The notes beneath the pieces were generated by a model. The model was not told the origin of the DNA. It searched no databases and saw only the letters and a program-made list of their open reading frames with translations. 64,000 nucleotides of DNA from Corallium rubrum (Eukaryota > Cnidaria > Anthozoa > Scleralcyonacea > Coralliidae), in NCBI GenBank assembly GCA_964035015.1, contig OZ035997.1, forward strand, positions 64,260,904-64,324,903, read 5' to 3'. The position numbers were made by a program, and so were the translations under genes. Position 1 is the stretch's first letter; the number at the start of each line of letters is the position of its first letter. Positions 25,331 through 44,961 of this stretch are shown in pieces.

Positions 25331-25613
25331 ATGCTTTTCCGAAGGTGACAAAATATCAAGTTCTATATATTTTCATATCAGAGATAACGTGTTGTTATTT
25401 CCATGTCAAGTTAAATCGCTATGTTTATGTCAAACGCATGAGACGTCGTTTTCATGTCAAGTTAAACCGCCATGTTTATGTCAAACGCATGAGACGTCAT
25501 TTTCATGTCAAACTTTTTGGTATATATTCATGTCAAACGTTTTCGCGTATACTTTTACATCAAGAATTGAGAATTTAACTTTTCATCACTTCGTGCTCAG
25601 TCTCTGGCGCGAA
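25331..25613 (+). repeat. Left terminal inverted repeat of the 19.6-kb transposon
   Basis: It matches 44578-44961 inverted, with fewer internal units. About two units of a 50-bp direct repeat (CATGTTTATGTCAAACGCAT, GAGACGTC) sit in the middle. The inner border is CAGTCTCTGGCGCG, followed by four GGCGCGAAA boxes just upstream of the HECT gene. Confidence 0.85.
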
Positions 25614-25722
25614 ATTGGCGCGAAATTGGCGCGAAATAACATTGGCGCGAAAATTGTGTTTCCATTTCACACGTGCACTCCTGCAGCTGTGGTTTTTACG
25701 CCTTTTTACATGTATTAATACT
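25614..25722. promoter_or_regulatory. GGCGCGAAA cluster upstream of the HECT gene
   Basis: Four GGCGCGAAA boxes lie at about 25607-25652, within 120 bases of the HECT gene start. TTTSGCGC boxes of this kind resemble E2F sites, which in animals tie a gene to S phase. The inverted end next to the transposase has only one GGCGCG. The E2F reading is an inference. Confidence 0.35.
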
Positions 25723-26306
25723 ATGGAAAACTTAGAAGGCTTGGTGCGAACGATAGTGGCCAGTGTTACTTCGTCTTCAAGGGAAAGCCAAGAACCTGAC
25801 AATTGCAGACAAGATAGGCAAGCTAGGCGGCCAGGGCCTTCAACAAGTGTGGAGGATGAAATTTCTTGTCGATTTGGAATTCCACGCCGTGGCGGTGGCG
25901 CTGGATCAAGCTCTGGCACCAGCACCGAAACAAGTATAAATACGAATACTCGTAGCCAGTACAGAGATCTTTCGCAGTATTTCCAACCGTCAGAAAACTA
26001 TGGATATCGTCAAGCTCGAGGAAGTCGCCAGGGAAGACAGCGTCGGCGTGCTTCGCCTTACCAAAACCCGCAAAGAAATCCATCCCAAAGCAAACTGGAC
26101 TCGACTCCCGTCATAAAAGAAATTGTACTTTTGCCCAACCCAGACATTGATAAAATCCCCAAATTTCAAAATAAGGTGCAGCTAAACGAACATGGTTTGA
26201 TTGTGGACGGATATAAAATAGATCGACGTTGGACAGAACAACAACTTAAGCAAAATCTGGCGTCTTTATTCTTCAATAAAGTAAAAGACGAACAAGGCGT
26301 AGTGAG

Positions 26307-27497
26307 GTACAGTACTCATAATAGTTTTTGTTTTCAGTTAGTATTATATTATTTGAGCTACGGCATAATGTGTTCTATCCGGCGTGATATTATTTATATG
26401 TCACTGAATATTATTAGTCTGATAAATAGACTCCGCGAGTGATGAGACGTCAATACCCAATACTATAAATACTAACGCAAAGTATATAATATTGACCTTT
26501 GCAAGTTTTGGATAGTCTAGTAGATTATTCGAACAAAAGGTACAAGTTTCATCAGATCTATGATCAGATAGACAAGTTGCGGACTTGTGAATCAAGCGTT
26601 AATATTTGTACTATATCAACATGTGTAGAACTACAACATTAACAACAATAATACAAGGTTAAACTTATGCTTATCATACATATTAAAATTATATTATAAA
26701 TTAAAGTTGTACTTATTATACATATTTTGTCGTTGACAGGGTGGGGTGTTTTTTTCTTTTCATAGCTTTGATTTTGTTAAAGCAATCGGATGCAACATTG
26801 CCAGTCTTAATGTCCCTGAAGGGCAAGAAATTAACGCAAAAGTGTTGTTAGGAATAGCAAAACAGGGGCCTGTCTACTTAAGGGCAAAAAGACCACTTCT
26901 TCTGGTAAGGATTTTCTTAGTTAATATTGATATAGATTAATAATATATTAGAAACTAGAAATTAACACTGCTAAAATTTGGTAATAAAAGCGCAAGAGAA
27001 AAATGAAATCGATGTCAATTTCACATAGAACGGAAGTAATTAACGCCCGATTTGGCGATTTATAGTTGAGTGTGAATTATCTTTATACCTATATAGGCTT
27101 GAATGGTTTTAAGGTAGGCCGGTGCGACAAATCTGGAAATGTTGTACTCTTGGCAGCCCTGCCATACAAAACAATTACAAGCTAGTGTATGTATAATTAC
27201 TTTAATAGTTTATTCACAACTTTTTAAGTTCCCAATTCTGGCCTTCTGCAAACTATTAAAATTTTAAAAACAACAAATTTTTCTTTTGAAAATCCGGTAG
27301 TAGTAGAACCTACACTTTAATTTACATTTGCAGTTGTGAGTTTCCTTGTAAGGGCTTTTCTGTTGAAAGGCTGTTCACAAAATGTGATGGTGTTTTCATG
27401 GATTTTTGACACCCCCTCCCCTCTGTGATCCTGACGTGACATATGTAATCACCCCCCATTTAACACATATCACCATTATATTTCTCATTCTATTCAG
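26307..27497. other. Introns 1 and 2 of the HECT gene (with exon 2 at 26766-26904)
   Basis: A/T-rich intron sequence surrounds exon 2. I see no gene or clear repeat here beyond a (T)n tract before exon 2. Confidence 0.5.
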
Positions 27498-43600: not shown

Positions 43601-44549
43601 TAAAGCATTTGGGCATGGGACATTGTATTTCCTTCGAATTATCATCCTGGACATTCTCAAAGCAGATGTGACTGGATCGAGTCGTTGCAAAGCAGAGATA
43701 ATACGATGTCTCTGTACTACCAAACCTTTGGATCTAAGGGCACCACGAATTAATCCAAGTCCAGACTGTGGGGTAACCATTAGAATTTCTTTTATAACAT
43801 TATCAAGTTCTTCATTGGATATGTCAGAAAAGTTTCCAGCCTGACCAACAGACATACCAATTTCCCTACGTCGACGATTTAAGGTTCTTGTTGATACCTG
43901 TAAATGTAAAGAGTAAAAAATTGAAAATAAGAGGGCCGGTGTTCCAGGAAATTTGTCCGCCCGGCAGTCACTACTCACTTATATAGTCACTAGTGTTAAA
44001 ATATATATATTTCGTTTGAGCTTTCAGCGTTTCAACATTCACGACAACTGAAGGACAATTTCAATATTTTGATACCTGTAATATTGAAGCAATGTCAGAC
44101 CATCGAAATCCAAGACTTTCTCGGAGTACCACCATTTGCTCCTCGGTAACATTAAGGCGTGGTCTCCCTGTAAACACCTCGTTTGAAGAAGTAACTTGTA
44201 CATGAAATGATTCTCGAGGACCTTCGTTTGTATCATAACCATCACCGCAGTCGTGTTCGTGACACACTGCGTCCATTTCTTCCATCGTATTATGAATAAT
44301 TCGCATTATCTGTTCGAAATGTAGCAACAATGGGGACGATCGTTGATATTCACGAATTCGGCCATACATAACACGTATTGTCTCTTCGTATTCAGAAAGG
44401 TTCCTGCTAAGGTATTCAACACGGTCCAAATCTATGCCATCTGAAACTAAACTTGCATTGCAATCTGTCATTAAACGGAGAAAGCCTTGAAAAAACTCCT
44501 CTATGTTTGGTATATAAAAGTTATTGGAAAGGTTGCCTGAATGCGCCAT
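40683..44549 (-). CDS. Integrase-like DDE transposase, three exons, 521 aa
   Basis: The exons are 44549-44076, 43897-43599 and 41475-40683; both junctions are GT-AG and the phases join exactly at TG|G for a Trp. Exon 1 codes an N-terminal helical region, then a GRPRLNVTEEQ segment. An HTH with FRWSDIASILQVSTRTLNRRR spans exons 1 and 2. Exon 2 adds a second helical unit like an integrase HTH_32 fold (SGLGLIRGALRSKGLVVQRHRI). Exon 3 is the catalytic core: Asp in HIDGDHKL, Asp in RVRSDKGLEN and Glu in HNQRIERLWRE, spaced D-x57-D-x34-E as in retroviral integrases. Then LHLVYLPLINKAL, FKDQWNNHP and TPRQLWVRGML follow. No stop or frameshift is seen. It would cut and insert the 19.6-kb element. The family is common in fish and cnidarian repeats as integrase core-domain proteins. 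Confidence 0.87.
41476..43598. other. Intron 2 of the transposase gene
   Basis: The 2.1-kb intron holds a (C)n(AC)n microsatellite at about 41589-41634 and an imperfect palindrome: 42282-42395 against 42408-42520, with CTTTTGATGGAAATGTTT and AATTACATTGCCAAGG arms and a 23-bp insertion in the left arm. No gene is supported. Confidence 0.55.
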
Positions 44550-44577
44550 GTTGGATGGAATGTTGATGCATAATCAC

Positions 44578-44961
44578 CGCGCCAGAGACTGGGCACGAAG
44601 TGATGAAAAGTTAAATTCTCAATTCTTGATGTAAATGTATAACGCGAAAACGTTTGACATGAATATATATCAAAATGTTTGACGTGAAAATGACGTCTCA
44701 TGCGTTTGACATAAACATGGCAGTTTAACTTGGCATGAAAATGACGTCTCATGCGTTTGACATAAACATGGCGGTTTAACTTGACATGAAAATGACGTCT
44801 CATGCGTTTGACATAAACATGGCGGTTTAACTTGACATGAAAATGACGTCTCATGCGTTTGACATAAACATAGCGATTTAACTTGACATGGAAATAACAA
44901 CACGTTATCTCTGATATGAAAATATATAGAACTTGATATTTTGTCACCTTCGGAAAAGCAT
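44578..44961 (-). repeat. Right terminal inverted repeat of the 19.6-kb transposon
   Basis: It is the inverse of 25331-25613 but holds four rather than two units of the 50-bp repeat (CATGACGTCTCATGCGTTTG family on this strand). The transposase start lies 29 bp inside it, so the TIR probably contains the promoter. Confidence 0.85.

Follow-up and report, generated by a model that had tools for sequence, protein, structure and literature searches.

The 64,000-nucleotide stretch of Corallium rubrum DNA analysed here (assembly GCA_964035015.1, contig OZ035997.1, positions 64,260,904 to 64,324,903 of the forward strand; hereafter the window) contains a 19,633-bp DNA transposon (25330-44962) with two convergent genes, one for an integrase-like transposase and one for a predicted HECT-type E3 ubiquitin ligase. 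From its ends, target site duplications (TSDs) and transposase, the element is assigned to the IS3EU superfamily, and we regard this identity and the two-gene architecture as close to certain. Judged by its sequence, the HECT ligase has long been a second gene in an IS3EU lineage; that it is resident there and under selection is highly probable. The components of the element are as follows.

25324-25329, no strand: left copy of the TSD, AGCTGA, 6 bp (sequence comparison of the flanks)
25330-25611, plus strand: left terminal inverted repeat (TIR), starting TATGC, with internal repeats spaced 51 bp apart
25723-26306, plus strand: HECT exon 1, Arg/Gly-rich N-terminal region
26766-26904, plus strand: HECT exon 2
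27498-27630, plus strand: HECT exon 3, with a Glu run
28125-28250, plus strand: HECT exon 4, with a CUE-like segment (sub-threshold)
32291-32365, plus strand: HECT exon 5
37678-38186, plus strand: HECT exon 6, N-lobe; lacks 27 bp that a second copy of the element, on C82, has
38910-39300, plus strand: HECT exon 7; premature stop in the window copy, none in the C82 copy
39729-39994, plus strand: HECT exon 8, C-lobe with the catalytic-type Cys (PDPESCFGKIKLP)
40683-41475, minus strand: integrase exon 3, rva_4 DDE core with D261, D319 and E354
43599-43897, minus strand: integrase exon 2
44076-44549, minus strand: integrase exon 1, with a weak helix-turn-helix-like match at its end
44578-44962, minus strand: right TIR, ending GCATA, with extra internal repeats
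44963-44968, no strand: right copy of the TSD, AGCTGA, 6 bp (sequence comparison of the flanks)

The inverted ends are TATGCTTTTCCGAAG at 25330 and CTTCGGAAAAGCATA at 44962. Inverted ends had been recognised in a preliminary description of this DNA, one base too far in on each side. The outermost 181 bp of both TIR arms (counted from 25331) are 99.4% identical; beyond these, weaker similarity continues via the internal repeats with their 51-bp spacing. The 8-bp duplication proposed in that description is rejected, as the flanks of the window element and of related elements give 6 bp, AGCTGA in the window and, independently, GGTTAA in the C82 copy. The left flank (24850-25330) is an imperfect tandem repeat array located directly at the insertion point. 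The array includes the word AGCTGA, so the duplication at the window site is, taken alone, weak evidence. Units resembling this array are also located to the right of 44962.

According to Kojima (PMC10045372), TA..TA termini occur in all complete IS3EU families and TSDs of 6 bp are the usual kind; the superfamily entered Repbase in 2013. The termini are TATGC..GCATA in the window element, the C82 copy and three complete relatives (C8, C197 and C213, below). TSDs were compared in 12 elements, namely the window element, the C82 copy and 10 of 16 pairs of related ends (below); eight have an exact 6-bp TSD, one an exact 7-bp TSD and two a match at 5/6 bases, and one has none. The transposase has an IS3/IS481-like integrase DDE core without HHCC, as seen in a Pfam scan and a 33-row alignment. 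A Ginger1 or retroviral-type integrase element does not fit the TSDs, which are 6 bp and not 4 bp as in Ginger1, or the lack of an HHCC family in the Pfam scan.

The integrase gene encodes 521 amino acids in three exons with an intact frame, in agreement with the three-exon DDE gene first described inside these ends. The integrase-like transposase seen at that stage has its DDE core, but its superfamily, IS3EU, had not been recognised. In the Pfam scan (E<=1), rva_4 scores 273.5 bits, rve and HTH_23 stay under the cut-off, and no HHCC integrase family is listed. Across the 33 aligned integrase rows, which count the C82 sequence twice, the first catalytic position is D in 32 (one gap), the second is D in all 33 and the third is E in 31 (one K, one gap). 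A direct PDB search with the integrase was weak, with unrelated chains (E=0.016-0.023) ahead of HTLV-2 integrase (E=0.19-0.2).

Eight exons, joined at GT-AG junctions in compatible phases, make up the HECT gene, which is convergent to the integrase gene. This exon structure is as first described; what had been overlooked is an in-frame stop within exon 7 and the loss of 27 bp of exon 6 relative to the C82 copy, in which the HECT frame is open (748 amino acids). Since the protein of the window family itself stays under the Pfam HECT cut-off, its identity is shown by way of relatives and with a profile of C-lobes. The window C-lobe exon detects relatives beside other integrases, and one of these relatives, L055 at C52, scores 64 bits with Pfam HECT. 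At E<=0.01, a profile built from 15 C-lobes (window family included) finds 72 PDB sequences, with AREL1 (1.8e-12) the best, and the best 60 of the 72 are all HECT-type ligases by name. The catalytic Cys is kept in 22/22 aligned C-lobe rows (invariant C72 in 15), the C82 sequence again being counted twice. The HECT identity proposed earlier is thus supported, although a direct PDB search with the HECT protein was weak (SMURF2, E=0.3). The gene product is a predicted E3 ubiquitin ligase and would transfer ubiquitin. In the window family, a CUE profile matches at E=0.003 (17.6 bits against a cut-off of 21.1 bits), and the TOLLIP CUE appears at E=0.32 in the PDB search.

A search of the genome (474 Mb, 312 contigs) with the left end as query located the second copy by both of its ends, at C82:186792-200381 (13,590 bp), in which an integrase and a HECT gene again lie between the same ends. 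Long blocks of the two copies are 97.4-99.8% identical. Their first and last bases are the same and their flanks differ, which argues that the window element is not a chance arrangement. Aligned substitutions are few (0.46% in exons, 0.85% elsewhere) and suggest a recent common source. The C82 integrase is shorter than that of the window copy by 48 bp, with the frame kept. The difference in size is due mainly to two inserts in the window HECT introns, also overlooked in the preliminary description, that resemble long interspersed nuclear elements (LINEs).

29785-32182, minus strand: LINE-like insert with reverse transcriptase, HECT intron 4, missing from C82
33123-36730, plus strand: LINE-like insert, HECT intron 5, missing from C82; endonuclease frame (Pfam match)

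In the second of these, a frame that by eye resembles reverse transcriptase comes after the endonuclease frame, and there is a tetranucleotide repeat tail.

Comparison of near-twin loci gave a related end, TATGCTTGCCTAAACCGGACAAAAT. A pattern search for it found 42 ends (reversed control, 0), which by position form 16 pairs and 10 singles. Both an integrase and a HECT C-lobe are enclosed by 3/16 pairs.

C8:47421658-47435887: complete relative, 14.2 kb, TSD TAACTC, exact
C197:121647-129691: complete relative, 8.0 kb, TSD GAAGAA, exact
C213:518927-528470: complete relative, 9.5 kb, TSD at 5/6 bases

The two-gene mobile element within one set of TIRs, as it was first put forward, is therefore represented by two copies (window and C82) and three complete relatives. 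Among the matches listed, inspected by eye, the other 13 pairs have no integrase or HECT inside, and they look like non-autonomous derivatives. Two elements with ends of the family type and 6-bp TSDs, C23:14142887-14153405 (10.5 kb) and C52:5923520-5929205 (5.7 kb), have no integrase or HECT among the matches listed. A candidate at C52 (L055-L057) with open integrase and HECT frames was rejected as a complete element, as a search of its 7.6 kb detected no TIR. L029:1297-2542 and L032:1257-2499 share, at 98.7% identity, a unit of 1.25 kb that surrounds integrase exon 3, whereas the sequences beyond it differ. Outside the C. rubrum genome, no relatives were found in the viral contigs or phages searched. 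A single GFP-family match would be consistent with an animal host, perhaps a cnidarian.

The linkage of the two genes was determined for 132 scored integrase exon-3 matches, from 993 candidates in the genome, and four lists of HECT matches. The first three lists came from the window exon (at least 83 matches; 150 of 216 candidates scored), Pfam HECT (at least 131 matches; 129 of 515 scored) and the L055 HECT (at least 84 matches; 88 of 416 scored); the fourth was the C-lobe profile applied to integrase loci. With all lists, a HECT lies within 12 kb of 68/132 integrases in convergent orientation; one integrase has a divergent HECT, none a tandem one and 63 have none among the matches listed. 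With the first two lists only, the corresponding numbers are 54, 1, 0 and 77. Against the 54 observed, 500 shuffles of positions with these two lists averaged 2.7 and never exceeded 10; the shuffles, in which most contigs were taken as ending at the largest coordinate seen, cover the count of 54 and not that of 68. The HECT of the single divergent case is convergent with a neighbouring integrase. At 28 other integrase loci of 3.8 kb, a C-lobe is present in 18 and convergent in 18/18, and a nineteenth (L049) has an N-lobe exon match. The integrases of the linked families are approximately 45-62% identical to the window integrase. The recurrence of the pair at so many places in the genome speaks for a contribution of the ligase to the element's life in its host.

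The one informative pair for selection is L046/L050 (dS approximately 1.0-1.2), in which the ratio of nonsynonymous to synonymous substitution rates (dN/dS) is 0.13 (HECT C-lobe) and 0.10 (integrase); at the level of the coding sequences this shows purifying selection on both genes. Less clear are L044/L045 and L048/L053, with low ratios from one or two HECT changes. Integrase and HECT distances correlate (r 0.68, p 1e-4, n=19), also without near-twins (r 0.47, p 2e-4, n=16). This is a correlation and not a formal co-phylogeny test; prolonged residence together would explain it better than repeated capture.

Several observations weigh against the explanation favoured below. Neither the window nor the C82 copy retains both genes at full length, the integrase match of C197 has a stop and the C-lobe match of C8 is shortened. 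The selection evidence comes from one pair. Between window and C82, HECT changes are six nonsynonymous and three synonymous (integrase, five and two). HECT ratios for L035/L039 and L036/L039 are 1.4 and 1.8 (6-7 changes only), and pairs at HECT dS 1.2-1.3, close to saturation, give 0.22-0.80. The Pfam HECT profile falls short on the window family's protein, the CUE match there is sub-threshold, and Pfam lists no CUE for the relative L055; a CUE segment is not claimed for the lineage as a whole. The window TIR is matched in part at seven further places in the genome; in the 18-20 kb surrounding each of them, no HECT was detected by tblastn, and integrase pieces are present at two (L012 and L018), each outside the end concerned, and at none of the other five. 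These places count against a simple rule that every copy has HECT. They look like partial or derived, non-autonomous copies, so that TIR copies without HECT, named in the preliminary description as a sign against it, do exist, while the C82 copy has both genes. Some lineages may be without HECT, since 63 of the 132 integrases have none among the matches listed. Conversely, 59/83 HECTs found with the window exon and 92/131 found with Pfam have no integrase from the list of 132 at a distance of up to 12 kb.

We propose that the long TIRs are the substrate of the integrase-like DDE protein, which would move the element by cut-and-paste, as the ends, TSDs and catalytic residues would predict, and insert it by staggered joining over 6 bp. 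The convergent HECT ligase, with its CUE-like segment in the window family, would be the resident, selected second gene. Most likely it would act in trans and ubiquitinate a host factor of silencing or repair, leading the host to tolerate the element. A host-directed target is preferred because the added genes vary by lineage (HECT here, a kinase and TET in the fungal families of PMC12730594, as its main text has them) and the kind of transposase is constant; such variation would fit accessory functions. We hold this choice of target tentatively, at somewhat under even confidence. The explanation as a whole, an IS3EU transposon with a resident HECT ligase acting on the host, is the one that we favour on balance.

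The strongest alternative is that the ligase targets the element's own transposase, either controlling its level or removing it after strand transfer and so letting repair finish. The convergent pair stays together and its distances are correlated, as this would have it. A ligase is also a plausible disposal route for a tightly bound recombinase, a task carried out in phage Mu by ClpX. However, HECT is probably dispensable for transposition of the IS3EU kind, as fungal TET+ families are described with an alpha-kinase and TET and, in the main text of PMC12730594, without the word HECT; we consider a self-directed ligase unlikely. It is still less probable that the HECT gene came from a host by capture and rides with the element as an inert passenger, without function. 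The premature stop of the window HECT and the several close-pair dN/dS ratios that are not low would fit a passenger, but linkage spans families with diverged integrases, the catalytic Cys is kept throughout and the sole informative pair gives the low ratio above. That there is no two-gene element, and a host HECT family happens to adjoin IS3EU insertions, would suit the many HECTs without a listed integrase nearby but is contradicted by the ends and TSDs of five complete elements at different sites that enclose both genes (one TSD at 5/6 bases) and by the orientation of 68 convergent to one divergent and no tandem pairs, and can be dismissed.

A wider picture, slightly less probable in our view than the host-directed target, would make a large IS3EU lineage an ancient class of two-gene elements with HECT as a fast-diverging core gene against host defence; many host HECT 'genes' would then be transposon ligases, some perhaps domesticated. 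With a ligase carried by the element, protein ubiquitination would join the ways in which transposons manage their hosts; PMC12730594 discusses SET histone methyltransferases and TET/JBP dioxygenases of transposons. The two-gene element could also account for HECT genes that adjoin integrase-like genes.

Elsewhere in the window, inverted arms of 1.4 kb (6472-7866 and 8755-10149) are 99.6% identical and separated by approximately 0.9 kb, and part of the arm sequence recurs at 18771-18960; 6472-10149 is perhaps a separate foldback or long-TIR element. An inverted pair of 263-bp repeats (47589-47851 and 62604-62863) is 95% identical and separated by 15 kb. Just outside the transposon, a 248-amino-acid open frame on the minus strand (45328-46074) has no Pfam match at E<=0.1.

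The element shares TA..TA termini, 6-bp TSDs and an integrase-like DDE core without an HHCC zinc-finger family with the IS3EU/GingerRoot elements of PMC10045372; it differs in the convergent HECT beside the transposase. In the fungal TET+ IS3EU elements of PMC12730594, an alpha-kinase gene and the transposase gene are oppositely oriented, and a TET/JBP gene separates the two. They resemble the coral element in having a second enzyme gene opposite the transposase and 6-bp TSDs, with TAYGG..CCRTA ends; they differ in that the added genes are an alpha-kinase and a TET/JBP dioxygenase. The words HECT and ubiquitin have no occurrence in the main text of PMC10045372, PMC12730594, PMC9587614 or PMC12763893. 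We regard an IS3EU-borne HECT as new provisionally; a prior description is possible, as the literature search was limited and no Repbase comparison was made. With cellular HECT E3 ligases (AREL1, UBR5, HUWE1 and E6AP), the predicted ligase shares a C-lobe with a catalytic Cys. It differs in being transposon-encoded, and the C-lobes compared here are often just 20-55% identical among themselves. Ulp1 or OTU proteases of the ubiquitin/SUMO pathway are carried by Mutator-like, Ginger or Helitron elements. Such transposons have an accessory enzyme of a ubiquitin-like pathway in common with the element described here; theirs are proteases, whereas the coral element would encode a ligase.

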